DNA from: Armatimonadota bacterium
GTDB taxonomy: Bacteria > Armatimonadota > Zipacnadia > Zipacnadales > VGFC01
Length of the DNA: 42,111 nt
Direction: 5' to 3'
NCBI GenBank assembly: GCA_016869045.1
Contig: VGFC01000013.1
Span: forward strand, 1-42,111
Shown in pieces: positions 11,004 through 17,798 of this stretch (within the stretch, counting starts at the first letter, position 1; each line of letters begins with the position of its first letter). Position numbers and translations under genes: made by a program. The notes beneath the pieces are model-generated. The model saw only the letters and a program-made list of their open reading frames with translations, searched no databases and was not told the DNA's origin.

Positions 11004-12017
11004 TCACGTCTCGGTTCGCGCGAAGTGGATGTCGTTGCGCCACGGAGGGGGTGGGTCCGCGAGAGCGTGGTCGCCCAGAACGGGTCGCAGCGTCGTCAGG
11101 AACTCCCGCCAGGTGGCGTCCTCAAGGAGTAGCTCCCCCATCCGCGTTCGGCCCTTGCCGGCGGCGGCTCGCTGATACCACGACAGCACCGCCTCAATGA
11201 CCTCGTGCACCTTCTCGTCGGGAAGGAACTCCGCAATGCGCTGCGCAGTGATCGGGTGCCGCCCGTGCTTGCCGCCCACGCGCACGATCCAGCCGGTCTC
11301 CTCCGCTTCCCACGCCTCCGTCGGGCAACTACGAATGCAGTCGCCGCAGTACAGGCACTTGTCGGGGTGGTAGACGGGCTCGCCCGTCTCGGGGTCGCTC
11401 TCGATTGCCCCCTCTCGGCAGGCCTCGGCGCAGATGCGACAGCCGATGCACTTCGCCTGATCCCACGCCGGCCGCACCGCCCCCTGGAACCCCAGATCGG
11501 CGCTGCTGGTGCGCACGCAGTCGCTGGGGCAGCCCGAGAACGAGATCTTGAACTTGTGCGCCAGCGACCACTTGCCGAAGAAGCGCTCCGTGACTTCCTG
11601 CGCCATCCGCTGCGTATCCGTCAGGCCGTTCGGGTTGTACTCGCACCCTCCGCAGGCGGTTGGCACGCGCACACGCGCCCCGCACGAGGCAATCTCCTGA
11701 CCGGCTTCGGCCAGCTCCTGCTGCACCTTGCCGATGTCGCGGAAGCTCACGTAGGGAATCTCGACCGACTGGCGCACGGACAGGTGCACGTAGTCGCGCC
11801 CGTACCTCTCCGCCACCTCCGCGATCTTCGCCAGCCGCTTCAGCGGCACGCGCCCACCCGGGCACTTCAGCCGGATCGTGAACAGGTCTTTCTGCCGCTG
11901 CTTGATGATCCCACCGCTCTTCAGCGTGGGAAAGTCCAGCTCGCCGCTCTTCCCCTCGACGTCCGCCTCCACGACGGCGGTGCCCTTGGTGTCCTCAATG
12001 TAGCGATCGACAGACAT
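11004..12017 (-). CDS. Siroheme sulfite reductase-like protein with two [4Fe-4S] ferredoxin motifs
   Basis: A 337-residue enzyme likely reducing sulfite to sulfide for assimilation. The N-terminal half has the sulfite/nitrite reductase ferredoxin-like fold (FTIRLKCPGGRVPLKRL; HLSVRQSVEIPYV). The siroheme-cluster region follows: Cys122 and Cys125 in PTACGGCEYNPNG, Cys163 and Cys167 in SGCPSDC. The first pair (C-x2-C) differs from the classic C-x5-C. A ferredoxin insert then supplies CIGCRICAEAC and CLYCGDCIRSCP, two [4Fe-4S] sites for electron entry. It is smaller than CysI and resembles the compact one-subunit or Asr/Dsr-type enzymes. It is the last gene of the unit, 12 nt after the JAMM gene. 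Confidence 0.85.
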   Translation of the reverse strand: MSVDRYIEDTKGTAVVEADVEGKSGELDFPTLKSGGIIKQRQKDLFTIRLKCPGGRVPLKRLAKIAEVAERYGRDYVHLSVRQSVEIPYVSFRDIGKVQQELAEAGQEIASCGARVRVPTACGGCEYNPNGLTDTQRMAQEVTERFFGKWSLAHKFKISFSGCPSDCVRTSSADLGFQGAVRPAWDQAKCIGCRICAEACREGAIESDPETGEPVYHPDKCLYCGDCIRSCPTEAWEAEETGWIVRVGGKHGRHPITAQRIAEFLPDEKVHEVIEAVLSWYQRAAAGKGRTRMGELLLEDATWREFLTTLRPVLGDHALADPPPPWRNDIHFARTET

Positions 12018-12029
12018 GACGGCGTTCCC

Positions 12030-12443
12030 TCACTCCACGATTTCCATCGGTTCCGGCGTCAGGCCGTTCCGGCCCGACCGCCAGGCAGCGAACGTCGGCT
12101 CGGCCTGAGCCAGGCCGCAGATGACATACACCGTGTCCTCGACTGCTTCCTGCTCGTCGGTGGGCGACGGCTCCGACCCGCCTCGGGGGTGCGAGTGGTA
12201 ATACCCGGCGGTCTCCGACTCCCCCGCGATCTCCAGCTCCAACGCAGCGAGCTGTGTCCCGTGATCGACGGCGTAGCGTTCCGTCGGACTTCGCTTCTCG
12301 GCGTTCCGTGCACGCAAGAGACCGGTCACGGTCGTCGGATCCCCAGGCGCCCCCAGAAGTACGCCGCAGCACTCGTGCGGGGCGCTTGCGCGTGCGTGCA
12401 GCGCGATCTCGTCCAGCACGGCGCGCGTCACTCGGAGAGCCAC
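12030..12443 (-). CDS. JAMM/MPN+ metalloprotease (Mec/HcyD-like)
   Basis: A 137-residue zinc isopeptidase. The full JAMM motif is present: Glu24 in PHECCGVLLG, His83 and His85 in YYHSHPRGG, Ser93 and Asp96 in EPSPTDEQ. Relatives remove an amino acid from a sulfur-carrier protein (Mec in M. tuberculosis) or trim the carrier (HcyD in Wolinella). Here both jobs are conceivable because the carrier gene in the same unit has its Gly-Gly followed by a NIL domain. It starts with GTG at 12443, inside the 3' end of the ThiF-like gene (16 nt overlap), with GGGGG upstream. It acts in the cytoplasm. Confidence 0.88.
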   Translation of the reverse strand: MALRVTRAVLDEIALHARASAPHECCGVLLGAPGDPTTVTGLLRARNAEKRSPTERYAVDHGTQLAALELEIAGESETAGYYHSHPRGGSEPSPTDEQEAVEDTVYVICGLAQAEPTFAAWRSGRNGLTPEPMEIVE

Positions 12444-13270
12444 TCGGCGGCCCCCTCCGCGTCCGTCTCGCAGCTCACCTCATACTCCACGAGGTCGGTG
12501 ATCGTCCGGTCCGGGCCACAGAGAGCGCACTCCGGATCGCGGCCGCGCTTCGCTTTGGTGAAGGTGCAGTCGAGCGCCTCATAGATTAGCAGCCGATCCG
12601 CCAACGAGACCTCGAAACCCAGCAGCAAGTTCAGCGCCTCGACGGCCTGCAGCGTTCCGATGACACCCACAACCGCTCCGAGAATCCCCGCCTCGCGGCA
12701 GCTGGGGATCACACCCGGCGGCGGTGGCTCCGGAACGTAGCAGCGGTAACACGGGCTCGCCCCGCCCGGCAGCACCGTCAGCAGCTGCCCCTCGAAGCGC
12801 AGCACCGCGCCCGAGACCAGCGGCACGCCCTCCAGCCAGCACGCATCGGCTACCAGGAAGCGCGTCGGGAAGTTGTCCGAGCCGTCGAGCACCACATCGT
12901 ACTGCGCGACGGCCTCGCGGGTGTTCGCCGCCGTCAGCCGCTCGGCGATAATGTCCACCCGGCAGTCGGGGTTCAGCCCCCCCACGAACTCGGCGGCGCT
13001 CACGGCCTTCGACCGGCCGACGTCTGCCGTCCCGTGCACGATCTGCCGCTGGAGATTGGACAACTCGACCACGTCACCGTCGGCGATGCCGATGCGTCCC
13101 ACGCCCGCCGCCGCCAGGTACTGGATGATCGGTGAGCCCAGACCCCCGGCGCCGACCACGAGCGCGCTGGAGTTCAACAGCCGCCGCTGCCCCTCGACAC
13201 CCACCTCCTTCAGGAGAATGTGGCGCGAGTAGCGCTCGATCTGCTCGGTGGTGAAGTCGAAGCCCGGCAT
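12428..13270 (-). CDS. ThiF/MoeB-type E1-like sulfur-carrier adenylyltransferase
   Basis: A 280-residue enzyme that adenylates the C-terminal glycine of a small carrier as the first step to a thiocarboxylate. The nucleotide-binding loop VVGAGGLGSPIIQYLAAAGVG, the ELSNLQRQIVH motif with the adenylation arginine, and VLDGSDNFPTRFLVAD are all intact. Zinc cysteines are CYRCY and, near the end, CALCG. There is no rhodanese domain, unlike MoeZ/MOCS3, so sulfur must arrive from another donor, perhaps free sulfide or the TusA-like protein. The ATG at 13270 comes 2 nt after the carrier stop codon. The frame is open further upstream only by chance. Confidence 0.93.
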   Translation of the reverse strand: MPGFDFTTEQIERYSRHILLKEVGVEGQRRLLNSSALVVGAGGLGSPIIQYLAAAGVGRIGIADGDVVELSNLQRQIVHGTADVGRSKAVSAAEFVGGLNPDCRVDIIAERLTAANTREAVAQYDVVLDGSDNFPTRFLVADACWLEGVPLVSGAVLRFEGQLLTVLPGGASPCYRCYVPEPPPPGVIPSCREAGILGAVVGVIGTLQAVEALNLLLGFEVSLADRLLIYEALDCTFTKAKRGRDPECALCGPDRTITDLVEYEVSCETDAEGAAEWLSE

Positions 13271-13272
13271 CG

Positions 13273-13776
13273 CTATTCCACCACTCCCAGTTCCACGGGT
13301 TCGACCGACACGCCCGCCTCCGTCAGGAAGGCGATGGCCTGTCGCACCTCGTCCTCCTCGCCCGACAGCTCCAGCCCGACGATGCCGACCTCCTTCGAGA
13401 CGCTGGCCTGGCGGATGTTGGTGACCACCTCGAACTTGCGCCCGACCTCCCAGATCAGCGGTCGCTCGACGAGGTCGTGGGGGAAGGTGAGCCACACCTT
13501 GCGGGCCACCGTCCCTCCCCCGGCAATCGCCGACAGGACCGCCACCTCATCGCCGTCGCTCACCGGCGTGTCCAGGCCGCCCAGCAGGCGGACATCCTCG
13601 CCGCCGTTGATGTGGATGTTGAAGTGCCGTCGGACCTGGCCCGTCCCATCGCACAGCCGCTCGCGCAGGCCCAGGCTGTCCAGCACTTCACCGATCGTCG
13701 CGCCCTGGGTCTCGACGACGCGGCGCCCGTCGAGCAGCCGCGCGAGCGCCGTTCCGGTCTTCACAGTAATCGCCAT
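13273..13776 (-). CDS. CysO/ThiS-like sulfur carrier fused to a C-terminal NIL domain
   Basis: A 167-residue two-domain protein. Residues 1-87 are a beta-grasp carrier: MAITVKTGT, then NIHINGGEDVRLLGGLDTP, then DGDEVAVLSAIAGGG. This is very close in pattern to mycobacterial CysO. In CysO the protein ends at Gly-Gly; here Gly86-Gly87-Gly88 is followed directly by a NIL domain (~90-165: KVWLTFPHDLVERPLIWEVG; VVTNIRQASVSKEVGIVGLE). NIL domains occur at the end of MetN methionine transporters, where they bind methionine, and in archaeal homocysteine-synthesis proteins. To work as a carrier the NIL part must be cut off, presumably by the JAMM protease two genes downstream. The ATG at 13776 follows GGAGACC, which is the edge of a tandem repeat. 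Confidence 0.88.
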   Translation of the reverse strand: MAITVKTGTALARLLDGRRVVETQGATIGEVLDSLGLRERLCDGTGQVRRHFNIHINGGEDVRLLGGLDTPVSDGDEVAVLSAIAGGGTVARKVWLTFPHDLVERPLIWEVGRKFEVVTNIRQASVSKEVGIVGLELSGEEDEVRQAIAFLTEAGVSVEPVELGVVE

Positions 13777-13781
13777 TGAGG

Positions 13782-14062
13782 TCTCCGTTTCCTGGATAGG
13801 AATCCGCAATCCTCGTCCGAGCCGTTCCCGTGTGGGGCCCCCGTCTCCCGGACAGGAATCCGCAATCCTCGTCCGAGCCGTTCCCGTGTGGGGTCTCCGT
13901 TTCCTGGATAGGAATCCGCAATCCTCGTCCGAGCCGTTCCCGTGTGGGGTCTCCGTCTCCCGGACAGGAGTCCGCGATCCTCGTCCGAGCCGTTCCCGTG
14001 TAGGGTCTCCGTCTCCCGGACAGGAGTCCGCGATCCTCGTCCGAGCCGTTCCCGTGTAGGGG
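13782..14062. repeat. Five tandem 56-bp repeats
   Basis: The phrase CCTCGTCCGAGCCG recurs at 13811, 13867, 13923, 13979 and 14035, exactly 56 nt apart. Each unit holds a small hairpin GGAYAGGARTCC. The arms change together (GGAT/ATCC and GGAC/GTCC), with one mixed copy. On the minus strand each unit ends with GGAGAC; in the unit next to the carrier gene this is its ribosome-binding site. 56 is not a multiple of 3 and there is no conserved reading frame, so it is not coding. Confidence 0.9.
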
Positions 14063-14275
14063 CGCGATTCATCGCGCCCACCCATGTAGGGGTTAACATG
14101 AAACGGTCCGCCGTTGGGGAAGACTCAGAGCAATGACGCACCGAATCCCCCACGAAAGGCGGACCGTTGATTCATCGCGCCCACCCATGTAGGGGCGCGA
14201 TTCATCGCGCCCACCCATGTAGGGGCGTGATTCATCACGCCCACCCATGTAGGGGCGTGATTCATCACGCCCTAT
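14056..14275. repeat. Array of ATGAAT-core palindromes at 30-bp period, one disrupted
   Basis: Intact units lie at 14056-14079, 14189-14212, 14219-14242 and 14249-14272, each GTAGGGGC...GCCC. A fifth begins at 14086 but is split by the hairpin element at 14102-14168. Two units have GCGC stems and two have GCGT/ACGC stems, all fully paired. Confidence 0.88.
14102..14168. repeat. Small hairpin element inserted in a palindrome unit
   Basis: AACGGTCCGCC (14102-14112) and GGCGGACCGTT (14158-14168) are perfect 11-bp inverted ends. Inner GGGG and CCCC could extend the pairing. The element replaces the CGC between GTAGGGG and GATTCATC of one palindrome unit, so it looks like an insertion. Confidence 0.65.
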
Positions 14276-14758: not shown

Positions 14759-16012
14759 TCATGCGCCCACCAGCGCACACAGCGCTTCCAGCAGCTCGTC
14801 GAATGCGTCGGCCTCGGCCTCGATGATTGGGCGCTCGCGCAGGTGATCGACGACCGCCTCCTGGGTCTTCAGGCCGTTGCCGGTGATGCTGATGACGACC
14901 GACTCGTCGGCGGGGATGTGCCCCTGCTCGATCAGCTTCTTCGTCACCCCTACCGTCACACCGCCGGCGGTCTCTGTGAAGATGCCCTCCGTCTCGGCCA
15001 ACAAGCGGATGCCCTCCACCAGTTCCTCGTCGGTCACATCCTCGGCCCAGCCGCCCGAGTGGCGGATCGTGTCGATCGCATAGAAGCCGTCCGCCGGGTT
15101 CCCGATCGCGATCGAGCGTGCGATGGTGTCGGGACGCTGGGGGGTGAACAGCTCCTCCCCGGCCTTCACGGCCGCGGTGATCGGGCTGCAGCCGGTAGCC
15201 TGTGCGCCGTGGACCCTTGTGTGTGCCTCGCCGATGAGGCCCACCCGCGCCAGCTCCCGGATGGCCTTGTCGATCTTGGTGATGAGCGAGCCCCCGGCCA
15301 TGGGCGCGACCACGTGCTGCGGCGCCCGCCAGCCAAGCTGCTCGACGATCTCGAAGCCGAAGGCCTTTGAGCCCTCCGCGTAGTAAGGTCGGAGGTTGAT
15401 GTTCACGAAGGCCCACGGGTAGCGGTCTGCGACCTCGGTGCAGAAGCGGTTCACCGCGTCGTAGTTGCCGGAGATGCCAACGACGTTCACCCCGTAGATC
15501 GAGGTTCCCACGATCTTGCCCGCCTCCAGGTCGGCGGGCATGAAGATGAAGCAGCGCAGCCCCGCCTGCACGGCCTGCGCAGCCACGCTGTTGCCGAGGT
15601 TGCCCGTGGTGGCGCAGGCCACCGTGTCGAAACCGAACTCCCTGGCCTTCGACAGCGCCACCGACACCACCCGGTCCTTGAAGGAGAGGGTTGGGTAGTT
15701 CACCGCATCGTTCTTCACGTACACTTCGCTGTGCCCGAGGGCCCGCTCCAGGTTCCGCGCGCGCAGGAGCGGCGTGAAGCCGACGTCACACCCGACGGTC
15801 GGCTCCTCATCCAGGGGCAGCAGCTCCCGGTAGCGCCACATGTTGGGCGCACGACGCTCGATCAGCTTCCGCGAGAGGGCGCCGCCGATGGCCTCGTAGT
15901 CGTAAGCGACCTCGAGCTTCCCGAAGCAGTACTCGCAGATGTGGATCGGCTGGTTCGGGTACTCCTCATGGCAATCCGCCTCGCGGCACTTCAGCCCGGT
16001 GACGTAGCTCAT
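14759..16012 (-). CDS. thrC: Threonine synthase-like PLP enzyme in the sulfur cluster
   Basis: A 417-residue fold-type II PLP enzyme. A zinc-ribbon-like N-terminus has Cys9, Cys14, Cys26 and Cys29. The PLP lysine is Lys112 in PTLSFKDRVV. The phosphate-binding loop is TTGNLGNSVAAQA, and MAGGSLITK and SITGNGLKT are typical of threonine synthases. The ordinary reaction is O-phosphohomoserine to threonine. Its place between tusA-like and carrier genes suggests it could instead use the carrier thiocarboxylate, as CysM uses CysO, to make homocysteine or cysteine; that is inference. GTG at 16024 opens the frame within the tusA stop, but ATG at 16012 with GAGGG upstream is better. Confidence 0.85.
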   Translation of the reverse strand: MSYVTGLKCREADCHEEYPNQPIHICEYCFGKLEVAYDYEAIGGALSRKLIERRAPNMWRYRELLPLDEEPTVGCDVGFTPLLRARNLERALGHSEVYVKNDAVNYPTLSFKDRVVSVALSKAREFGFDTVACATTGNLGNSVAAQAVQAGLRCFIFMPADLEAGKIVGTSIYGVNVVGISGNYDAVNRFCTEVADRYPWAFVNINLRPYYAEGSKAFGFEIVEQLGWRAPQHVVAPMAGGSLITKIDKAIRELARVGLIGEAHTRVHGAQATGCSPITAAVKAGEELFTPQRPDTIARSIAIGNPADGFYAIDTIRHSGGWAEDVTDEELVEGIRLLAETEGIFTETAGGVTVGVTKKLIEQGHIPADESVVISITGNGLKTQEAVVDHLRERPIIEAEADAFDELLEALCALVGA

Positions 16013-16020
16013 GGCGACCC

Positions 16021-16266
16021 TCACTCCCCCTTGCGCACCAGCAGGTGGTAGCGGTCGCCCTCTCGGCGCACGGCCTCGATTCGATGTCCTTCGTCCCGGA
16101 GGCTTCGCGGGACGTTACGAATCTGCTCCCCGGCCTTCAGCGTCAGCGTCAGCGCGTCACCAACCGCGATCGCGTCCAGGTGCAGCTTCGCCTTGACGAA
16201 CGTCATCGGGCAGACCTCGCCCGTCAGGTCCACTTCGCGCACTCCCAGCTCTTGCTCCGTTGCCAT
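16021..16266 (-). CDS. TusA/SirA-like sulfur-transfer protein
   Basis: An 81-residue protein with the TusA fold and its signature VDLTGEVCPMTFVKAKL, where Cys19 of the CPxxxxK motif would carry a persulfide. Homologues pass sulfur between enzymes in tRNA thiolation, sulfur oxidation and assimilation. It lies 68 nt after cysH and 8 nt before thrC-like ATG. In this unit it could deliver sulfur to the carrier, because the ThiF-like protein has no rhodanese domain. Start ATG at 16266. Confidence 0.88.
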   Translation of the reverse strand: MATEQELGVREVDLTGEVCPMTFVKAKLHLDAIAVGDALTLTLKAGEQIRNVPRSLRDEGHRIEAVRREGDRYHLLVRKGE

Positions 16267-16334: not shown

Positions 16335-17051
16335 TCAGATCTGGTAGTCGGCCTGCAACGGCCGCGTGTGGATGCCGCACTCGCCGCCGCACTTGCTGGT
16401 GCCGATCCACCGTCCGGCGCGCTCGTCGGGGTCGGCGGTGATGTGCGTGCAGGGCCAGCAGCCGAGTGACCGGTAGCCCAGCTTGTAGAGTGGGTTCACG
16501 GGAACTTCGTACAGCGCCAAGTACTGCCAGATCTCCCGCTCGTGCCACACCAACACCGGGTTCAGCTTCAGGAGGCCTACGTCGCGTTCCTCGATCTCCT
16601 GGAAGTCGGTCCGCGTGCGCCCCTCCGTGCAGCGCAAGCCGGTGACCCAGCAGGCGACGTTCATCTCGGCAATCGCCTGCCGCGTCGGCTCGACCTTCAG
16701 GACCTCACAGCACTCGTCCGGGTCCGTCTCATACAGCCGCTCCGGGATCTCGGCCTCGTTGGAGAAGACCCGCAGCTCCGGGTACCGCTCAACCGTCTCC
16801 ACCATGAACCGTTTCGTCTCCGGCGGCTTGAATCGCGTGGTGATGATGAACCCACGGATGCTCGCGCTGACCCGCTTCGCCAGGTCCCACACCACGCACG
16901 AGTCCTTTCCGAGGCTGTTCGCGACCACCAGGCGGTCGCCGAACTCCTCGTACGCCTCCCGGATCAGCCCCAGCGCCCGGTCCACCTTCTCCGCGAAGTT
17001 CAGTCCGTCAACCAGCTCTCGCACATCCACCTGCGTTGCTGTCACCGGCAT
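16335..17051 (-). CDS. cysH: APS/PAPS reductase with [4Fe-4S] cysteines
   Basis: A 238-residue enzyme that reduces activated sulfate to sulfite. The PP-loop is NSLGKDSCVVWD. The [4Fe-4S] ligands of the adenylylsulfate (APS) type are all present: Cys114-Cys115 in PDECCEVLKVEP and Cys198/Cys201 in RSLGCWPCT. The catalytic Cys225 is in GGECGIH. The iron-sulfur ligands favour APS over PAPS as substrate. The frame opens at 17105, but ATG at 17051 with AAGGA nearby was chosen. It is the first enzyme gene after the Rrf2 regulator, 108 nt away; the gap holds a putative regulator site. Confidence 0.93.
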   Translation of the reverse strand: MPVTATQVDVRELVDGLNFAEKVDRALGLIREAYEEFGDRLVVANSLGKDSCVVWDLAKRVSASIRGFIITTRFKPPETKRFMVETVERYPELRVFSNEAEIPERLYETDPDECCEVLKVEPTRQAIAEMNVACWVTGLRCTEGRTRTDFQEIEERDVGLLKLNPVLVWHEREIWQYLALYEVPVNPLYKLGYRSLGCWPCTHITADPDERAGRWIGTSKCGGECGIHTRPLQADYQI

Positions 17052-17116
17052 GGTCCTTGCCTCCCTGCACCGGGCGCCTTCCCGCGCCCCGTGTGTTGTC
17101 AGCATATCGATTGAAT

Positions 17117-17159: not shown

Positions 17160-17609
17160 TCAGATCGCGTAGTCAGGTGCGAACTGCCGCTCCTGTGCCC
17201 GCTCCTTCTCTACCAGGTCCTGCAGTGTGGTGTTGTCGTACACCTCTTCCACCTGGTCTCGGACCTGCTCCCACATCGGCATGAACACACACCGGCCGCG
17301 GAGGGGGCAGTTCTCCTTGGCGTCGCCGGCCATACAGCCGACCGGCCCGATTGGCCCCTCGACGAAACGAATGATCTCGCCGACGGTGAGGCCGCTCGGG
17401 TCTCGGTCGAGCACATAGCCTCCCTCGTTGCCCCGGTGCGAAGCCACGAAGCCTCCCTGCTTCAGCTGGCCCAGGATGACTTCCAGGAAGCGCTTCGGGA
17501 TGGCCTGGGCCTCGGCCACGTCCGCGATCCTCACCGGGCCCTGACCGTAGCACTTCGCCAGATGGAAGCTCGCACGCAAGGCGTACTGGCACTTCTGTGA
17601 CAGCAACAT
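17160..17609 (-). CDS. Rrf2 family regulator at the head of the sulfur cluster
   Basis: A 149-residue winged-helix regulator (MLLSQKCQYALRASFHLAK; IPKRFLEVILGQLKQGGFV; SHRGNEGGYVLDRDP). Cys92, Cys101 and Cys107 (C-x8-C-x5-C) suggest an iron-sulfur cluster, with spacing near that of NsrR. In Gram-positives the Rrf2 protein CymR controls cysteine synthesis; here the position before cysH suggests a similar task. The ATG at 17609 lies just downstream of a perfect promoter and a candidate operator, so autoregulation is likely. The open frame upstream of 17609 crosses the promoter and is not coding. Confidence 0.9.
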   Translation of the reverse strand: MLLSQKCQYALRASFHLAKCYGQGPVRIADVAEAQAIPKRFLEVILGQLKQGGFVASHRGNEGGYVLDRDPSGLTVGEIIRFVEGPIGPVGCMAGDAKENCPLRGRCVFMPMWEQVRDQVEEVYDNTTLQDLVEKERAQERQFAPDYAI

Positions 17610-17618
17610 CGTCGCACC

Positions 17619-17637
17619 TAGTCGATCAAGTTGGTCG
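17619..17637. promoter_or_regulatory. Putative Rrf2 operator in its own promoter
   Basis: TAGTCGA...TTGGTCG lies 2 nt downstream of the -10 box of the promoter at 17640-17668. The same two half-words recur before cysH. Bound protein would block transcription start. Confidence 0.4.
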
Positions 17638-17639
17638 GG

Positions 17640-17668
17640 ATTATAGCCATTCCGTCTGCCTGTGTCAA
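17640..17668 (-). promoter_or_regulatory. Perfect consensus promoter for the Rrf2/sulfur unit
   Basis: On the minus strand TTGACA (17663-17668), 17 nt, TATAAT (17640-17645). A second TTGACA lies at 17675-17680. It is the best promoter match in the window, and such strong promoters are often kept silent by a repressor. Confidence 0.88.
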
Positions 17669-17798
17669 GAGGCATGTCAAGAGGTGGGGTCACATCTTTA
17701 GATTTCAATCTTCGCGCCCCCGCCTGCGGACCGACAGTCGTGCGCGTCCGGGTTGAGGTGCTGGTTCGTGGAGGTTGTCGCGACCACGATTCCCGTCA

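Follow-up and report, generated by a model that had tools for sequence, protein, structure and literature searches.

The window, a stretch of 42,111 nucleotides of armatimonad DNA, was found to carry a gene in which a ThiS/MoaD-type beta-grasp sulfur carrier with an internal Gly-Gly runs on, in the same frame, into a NIL domain. The gene lies in an operon with an E1-like adenylyltransferase, a JAMM metallopeptidase and a paralog of threonine synthase (ThrC2), its Gly-Gly is conserved, and the fusion recurs beside relatives in which carrier and NIL are separate genes. The protein is probably a masked pro-form of a MetO/HcyS/CysO-type carrier, which would be cut by the JAMM enzyme of its own operon and feed a homocysteine route through ThrC2, the NIL part then being regulatory. 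The best reading of the whole operon is a thiocarboxylate pathway resembling both MetM/MetO and HcyS/HcyF/HcyD, with the carrier masked by NIL.

The thiS-NIL gene and its operon

The original prediction of a carrier fused to NIL at 13273-13776 was confirmed in its coordinates and in both domains, with the correction that the gene reads on the minus strand, from 13776 to 13273 (Table 1). The plus-strand reading was rejected as an anti-sense frame; the minus strand gives the 167-residue protein. Against the Pfam ThiS profile residues 15-87 scored 44.2 bits (curated cut-off 22.5), and residues 95-159 scored 49.6 bits against NIL (curated cut-off 24). The best PDB profile match of the carrier domain is CysO of Mycobacterium tuberculosis (3dwg, E 6e-22), which it also matches in fold. 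The motif AIAGGG, numbered one position off in the earlier description, consists of A83, I84, A85, G86, G87 and G88, with the Gly-Gly inside the chain and not at the free C-terminus with which such carriers normally work. In the window genome three more ThiS-family proteins (L001, L003, L004) occur, and all of them end precisely with Gly-Gly followed by the stop codon. To judge by its sequence, the carrier half almost certainly needs separating from the NIL half before it can serve sulfur amino acid synthesis.

The ATG at 13776 is preceded by a Shine-Dalgarno-like GGAGA, and a longer upstream open frame, reaching to 14085 across a repeat array, is therefore probably non-coding. Related fused ORFs from independent assemblies are 83, 71, 70 and 70% identical to the window protein and each 167 residues long; this equal length across several assemblies ruled out an assembly error. 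Roughly 1 kb separates the ThrC paralog from the thiS-NIL gene, and part of this gap is taken up by tandem repeats (56 bp×5 and 30 bp×3.5) at 13780-14272. In loci L058-L060 the same gap measures just tens of bases. Peptides like those derived from the repeats (GRDESRPY, GAMNRAPT) are encoded elsewhere in the window genome (L001, L003).

Table 1. Features of the thiS-NIL operon in the window.
Feature	Position	Strand	Basis or remark
Sulfite reductase with 4Fe-4S ferredoxin domain	11004..12017	-	
JAMM/MPN+ metallopeptidase (Mec/HcyD-like)	12030..12443	-	Prok-JAB E 1.5e-19; motif HSHPRGGSEPSPTD and PHECCG
E1-like ThiF/MoeB adenylyltransferase, without rhodanese domain	12428..13270	-	Pfam ThiF E 1e-77
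thiS-NIL fusion gene	13273..13776	-	167 aa and stop TAG
NIL domain, residues 95-159	13300..13494	-	Pfam NIL; profile and fold matches to MetN C2 domains
Asn120 codon, equivalent of E. coli MetN Asn295	13417..13419	-	Alignment ungapped up to that position
Conserved Gly86-Gly87, predicted JAMM cut after Gly87	13516..13521	-	Conservation in aligned fusions; drop in model confidence
ThiS/MoaD (CysO-like) beta-grasp carrier domain, residues 1-87	13516..13776	-	Pfam ThiS and PDB profile match
Threonine-synthase paralog (ThrC2, MetM-like)	14759..16024	-	Clade separate from canonical ThrC of related genomes
TusA sulfurtransferase	16021..16266	-	
PAPS/APS reductase (CysH family)	16335..17105	-	
Rrf2-family regulator (CymR/IscR-like)	17160..17708	-	

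The genes follow each other on one strand in the order Rrf2 regulator, PAPS reductase, TusA, ThrC paralog, ThiS-NIL, ThiF, JAMM and sulfite reductase, and ThiF starts 2 bp past the stop codon TAG of thiS-NIL. A JAMM gene had been claimed for this unit and is indeed present (12443-12030), with its zinc-site motif E...HSHPx6SxxD complete, that is, with the Glu and the HxHP-x6-S-x2-D pattern of such enzymes. It is the sole JAMM match in the window genome. JAMM and sulfite reductase abut at 12017-12030 in the window. In the closest relatives of the window (L090-L092) CysM, a cysteine synthase, sits between these two genes and adjoins JAMM; it has therefore been lost or moved in the window.

Recurrence of the fusion

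A search of the phylum covered 291 genomes, after which loci were read, and a wider scan of 84,980 species genomes led to 80 named loci that were read. The usual arrangement in the phylum is ThrC paralog, carrier and NIL, with carrier and NIL as separate adjacent genes; the split carriers end with AIAGG and the stop codon or bear 1-9 extra residues. The fusion was found in at least three separate backgrounds. One group consists of the window and L090-L093 (Armatimonadota, with one record labelled Planctomycetota and one unassigned), a second of L094, L095 and L102 with L096, L097 and L112 (labelled mostly Deltaproteobacteria or Desulfuromonadales). Further fusions occur in genomes G067 (L061) and G015 (L062, identical with L129).

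In the ThrC tree, both groups fall into one supported clade of 20 rows together with short-tailed deltaproteobacterial loci, and two changes between the fused and unfused states suffice within it. The fusions of the window and of the Deltaproteobacteria may go back to one origin with re-splitting, or to two. Those of G067 and G015, which have no adjoining ThrC paralog and were left out of the tree, look like further origins. Split and fused deltaproteobacterial loci differ very little in DNA; in the split loci the TTG start of the NIL gene overlaps the TGA of the carrier, which has a two-residue tail, for example GG-Ala-Phe. In L061 (9603-12227) the thiS-NIL fusion is followed by one gene of 313 residues and then by a PF01053 enzyme, and no match to ThrC was found in the G067 genome. 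Separate NIL proteins with two tandem NIL-like copies were seen in L046, L049, L051, L068 and L070.

Conservation at the Gly-Gly junction

Across six aligned fusions A83, I84, A85, G86 and G87 are invariant and the next residue varies; at this position the closest relatives of the window have G, A, D or A. Among 13 fusions of any type, a count that includes one carrier fused to ThiF and leaves out Gly88 of the window itself, the residue after Gly-Gly is Ala in 10 and Asp, Asn or Ser in the others. Since the Gly-Gly is kept while its neighbour varies, the cut is expected after Gly87. Cleavage after Gly87 or Gly88 had been proposed; the first of these is the predicted site and the second is disfavoured, as residue 88 is not conserved. 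In the AlphaFold2 model of the fusion both domains are predicted with confidence (mean pLDDT 90.8), which drops to about 70 in block 81-90. The domains have no fixed mutual arrangement (pTM 0.54), and the Gly-Gly lies in the lowest-confidence inner stretch between them. A run of about 10 A stands directly behind the Gly-Gly codons in the fusions of L096, L097 and L112, where slippage could yield both fused and short products.

A Gly-Gly kept in all aligned fusion lineages is expected only if it becomes a C-terminus, and this invariance makes it very unlikely that the fusion works uncut, as a scaffold or inhibitor instead of a carrier, with its Gly-Gly never activated. Moreover, the E1 enzyme of the operon requires a free C-terminal Gly, and no carrier gene besides thiS-NIL was found in the window operon. 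Two observations point the other way. No JAMM was found in two genomes with the fusion (G295 and G297, at 1.8 Mb probably incomplete assemblies), and a related two-domain MoaD protein has been crystallised (1v8c), whose compared chain has 160 residues and was apparently uncut as expressed.

The role of the JAMM enzyme

The proposal that JAMM frees the carrier held as a likely protease function, for which there is precedent, and failed as far as it tied the enzyme to the fusion. DRJAMM of Deinococcus radiodurans splits MoaD-MoaE so that a Gly is left at the C-terminus (PMC8832034), activity of MoaX of M. tuberculosis needs a cut after Gly82 by a protease that was not identified (PMC4326299), and JAB as the liberator of fused ThiS/MoaD was proposed in 2006 by Iyer, Burroughs and Aravind (PMC1779556). 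However, JAMM co-occurs with separate carrier and NIL genes in L043, L053, L054 and deltaproteobacterial loci (carrier tails of 1-8 residues), and the deltaproteobacterial loci have JAMM and CysM within one operon, as L090-L092 have them side by side. The enzyme therefore has roles besides any cutting of this fusion, and its presence solely because of the fusion was ruled out by its occurrence with split and short-tailed carriers.

The same occurrences, together with locus L041, where the carrier of a JAMM locus ends with Gly-Gly and the stop codon, favour an alternative in which JAMM is a hydrolase of the Mec/HcyD type that detaches cysteine or homocysteine from the carrier. Cutting of the fusion would then fall to another or a general protease, or happen only incidentally through JAMM. 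We regard this as rather unlikely. JAMM enzymes elsewhere cut linear fusions after Gly-Gly (PMC8832034), and at a threshold of >50 bits JAMM was present in 41 of the 45 genomes whose carrier is masked by a tail or a fusion, as against 11 of 41 with a carrier ending in Gly-Gly (Fisher p 5.4e-10, kinship being ignored and the JAMM of L093, cut off at a contig end, being counted as present). Verrucomicrobia, poor in JAMM, have carriers ending with Gly-Gly and the stop codon in nearly every locus read. The association was rejected as proof: the ThrC tree offers about seven independent contrasts, most showing no difference, and the significance is gone. The raw association is mostly one contrast of Verrucomicrobia with the rest, and the counts are therefore compatible with JAMM cutting masked carriers, without going further. 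HcyD of Wolinella reportedly combines both activities, uncovering the carrier and releasing the product. Another natural masked carrier was seen in L050 (G179) and L056 (G045), where a carrier with internal Gly-Gly is fused to its own ThiF-rhodanese enzyme and a JAMM gene adjoins.

Link to homocysteine and methionine

In 18 of 22 scanned loci from outside the Armatimonadota a SAM riboswitch (RF00162) was located directly 5' of the ThrC paralog (L095, L099, L100, L102, L108, L114-L116, L119, L121, L122, L126, L131, L133, L137, L138, L169 and L170), and in two of these, L095 and L102, the carrier is fused to NIL. In the fused locus L096 the riboswitch lies 5' of the CysM homolog with which the operon begins; the three scanned loci without a riboswitch match include two, L136 and L154, that are truncated near that point. 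Neither a SAM riboswitch nor any other known RNA was found in the window, and the known RNAs in scanned armatimonad loci were limited to tRNAs in L068 and a T-box in L070. This T-box leader lies 5' of the ThrC paralog, at 15883-16152.

ThrC2 forms a clade apart from canonical ThrC (100/100, in a tree without MetM of Streptomyces albulus). Most genomes with ThrC2 carry a canonical ThrC as well, which ruled out ThrC2 as their sole threonine synthase. In the actinobacterium Nonomuraea (L170) riboswitch, ThrC and carrier are consecutive, and this ThrC lies on the ThrC2 side of the tree. Neither a strong PF01053 enzyme nor HcyBio/DUF39 was detected in 44 of the 89 genomes checked, nearly all of them with carrier or NIL genes. 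These genomes therefore lack a homocysteine synthase of those families, and they are candidates for MetM/MetO in that role. On sequence grounds, the trio of paralog, carrier and NIL is a methionine module. The link to methionine in the original prediction is thus upheld by the SAM riboswitches that precede this module in other phyla and by the MetM-like ThrC paralog.

For the window genome itself the case for homocysteine is weaker. Its operon lacks the riboswitch, and relatives retain CysM in theirs. Another homocysteine route is encoded by an HcyBio/DUF39 gene adjoining a NIL-ferredoxin gene (L035, G000:C564), and there is one strong PF01053 enzyme, so the operon is not the sole possible source of homocysteine. 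Cysteine may be a second or the main product in this genome.

The NIL domain as a possible methionine sensor

The window NIL matches the C2 domains of MetN by profile and by fold. In an ungapped alignment Asn120 stands opposite Asn295 of E. coli MetN, and it is invariant across the six fusions; the Asn is absent from some separate NIL proteins (L044, L055, L067, L066 and L057). With the exchange N295A the regulatory domain of MetN no longer binds L-Met (PMC12357092), and the NIL domain of L-aspartate semialdehyde sulfurtransferase has been described as methionine-binding (PMC12068725). Sensing of methionine by the window NIL is plausible.

The original prediction went further and suggested that the tail could gate maturation. 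Methionine bound to the NIL of the uncut fusion would hide the Gly-Gly linker from JAMM, and the end product would thereby control activation of the carrier. The NIL family with N120 in the place of MetN N295, the SAM riboswitches that show methionine or SAM control of the pathway elsewhere, and the methionine-binding NIL of the sulfurtransferase speak for such gating. We nevertheless consider it unlikely: the separate NIL protein of most relatives cannot work via a linker, the Asn is not kept in all separate NILs, and the ligand site of MetN lies between two C2 domains. As NIL is separate in most relatives, its basic job is independent of attachment, and control over the cut would be something that the fused lineages have added. 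Its full form, in which the attached NIL senses methionine and blocks or permits the JAMM cut so that the carrier is matured only at low methionine, is decidedly doubtful. If true, it would be end-product feedback on the processing of a ubiquitin-like sulfur carrier.

Proposed pathway

The pathway that we infer, from cleavage and its site through the enzymatic steps to the sensing of methionine, would run as follows. PAPS reductase and sulfite reductase, perhaps with TusA, would supply reduced sulfur. JAMM would cut the fusion after Gly87 into a carrier of 87 residues and a NIL protein of 80 residues. Gly87 would be adenylated by ThiF and then turned into a thiocarboxylate, whose sulfur the MetM-like ThrC2 would join to O-phosphohomoserine, giving homocysteine on the way to methionine. 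The carrier may also serve a cysteine synthase, as CysM is still part of the operon in close relatives. The released NIL would act as the separate NIL of relatives does, most likely by regulating this pathway in response to methionine. The fusion in one frame would either derive from two adjacent genes or be interconvertible with them; it would ensure equal amounts of both parts and keep the carrier inert before cleavage.

Such a pathway would join two described homocysteine routes, one with a thiocarboxylate carrier uncovered by JAMM and one with a ThrC-like synthase and its own carrier. To our knowledge, NIL has not been assigned before as a conserved partner of these two routes. Many Verrucomicrobia, Armatimonadota and Deltaproteobacteria without PF01053 enzymes and HcyBio have the trio, which may explain their methionine synthesis; in split form it is also carried by a cultured relative, Chthoniobacter flavus (L121). 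Natural fused, short-tailed and free-ended carriers, some otherwise near-identical, form a set for testing carrier uncovering and methionine control.

Comparison with known systems

The HcyS/HcyF/HcyD system, which is cited in PMC6225789, likewise has a covered Gly-Gly carrier, an E1-like enzyme and a JAMM, clustered with sulfite reductase and sulfate-reduction genes; its JAMM removes the cover and its product is homocysteine, as is predicted for the window. Its cover is a single Ala, whereas that of the window carrier is a whole NIL domain, and its PLP enzyme is MetY, in place of which the window cluster has the ThrC paralog.

Streptomyces has a MetM/MetO route via O-phosphohomoserine (Hasebe 2024, as cited in PMC12172450). 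According to that account, a ThrC-like homocysteine synthase and a ThiS-family carrier are encoded side by side, and in Streptomyces a SAM riboswitch is present as well. In the window, too, a ThrC-like enzyme placed off the canonical ThrC clade, in a comparison without S. albulus MetM, lies beside a carrier. The window differs from L170, which has the MetM/MetO arrangement, in that the L170 carrier ends with Gly-Gly and the stop codon, with no adjoining NIL detected, and in lacking the riboswitch of L170. The CysO/CysM/Mec system of M. tuberculosis is related through CysO, the best PDB sequence match of the window carrier, and through the adjacency of JAMM and CysM in close relatives of the window, but CysO ends with Gly-Gly, has no NIL, and the product is cysteine.

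A beta-grasp carrier with internal Gly-Gly is likewise joined to a second domain in MoaX (M. tuberculosis) and MoaD-MoaE (D. radiodurans). These two are cut after the second Gly, as is predicted for the window protein; their partner is the catalytic MoaE subunit and their pathway that of molybdopterin, whereas the window partner is NIL. The MoaD-related protein 1v8c of Thermus thermophilus (168 residues) has two domains, both matching in fold (E 3e-8), and an internal Gly-Gly that ends its ThiS match; it was rejected as a solved NIL fusion, as the NIL profile misses its C-terminal domain despite the fold match. Operon type 4e (PMC1779556), in whose description NIL and threonine synthase, both present in the window operon, are not mentioned, shares with the window ThiS/MoaD, JAB, an E1-like enzyme without rhodanese, SirA/TusA, PAPS reductase and sulfite reductase.
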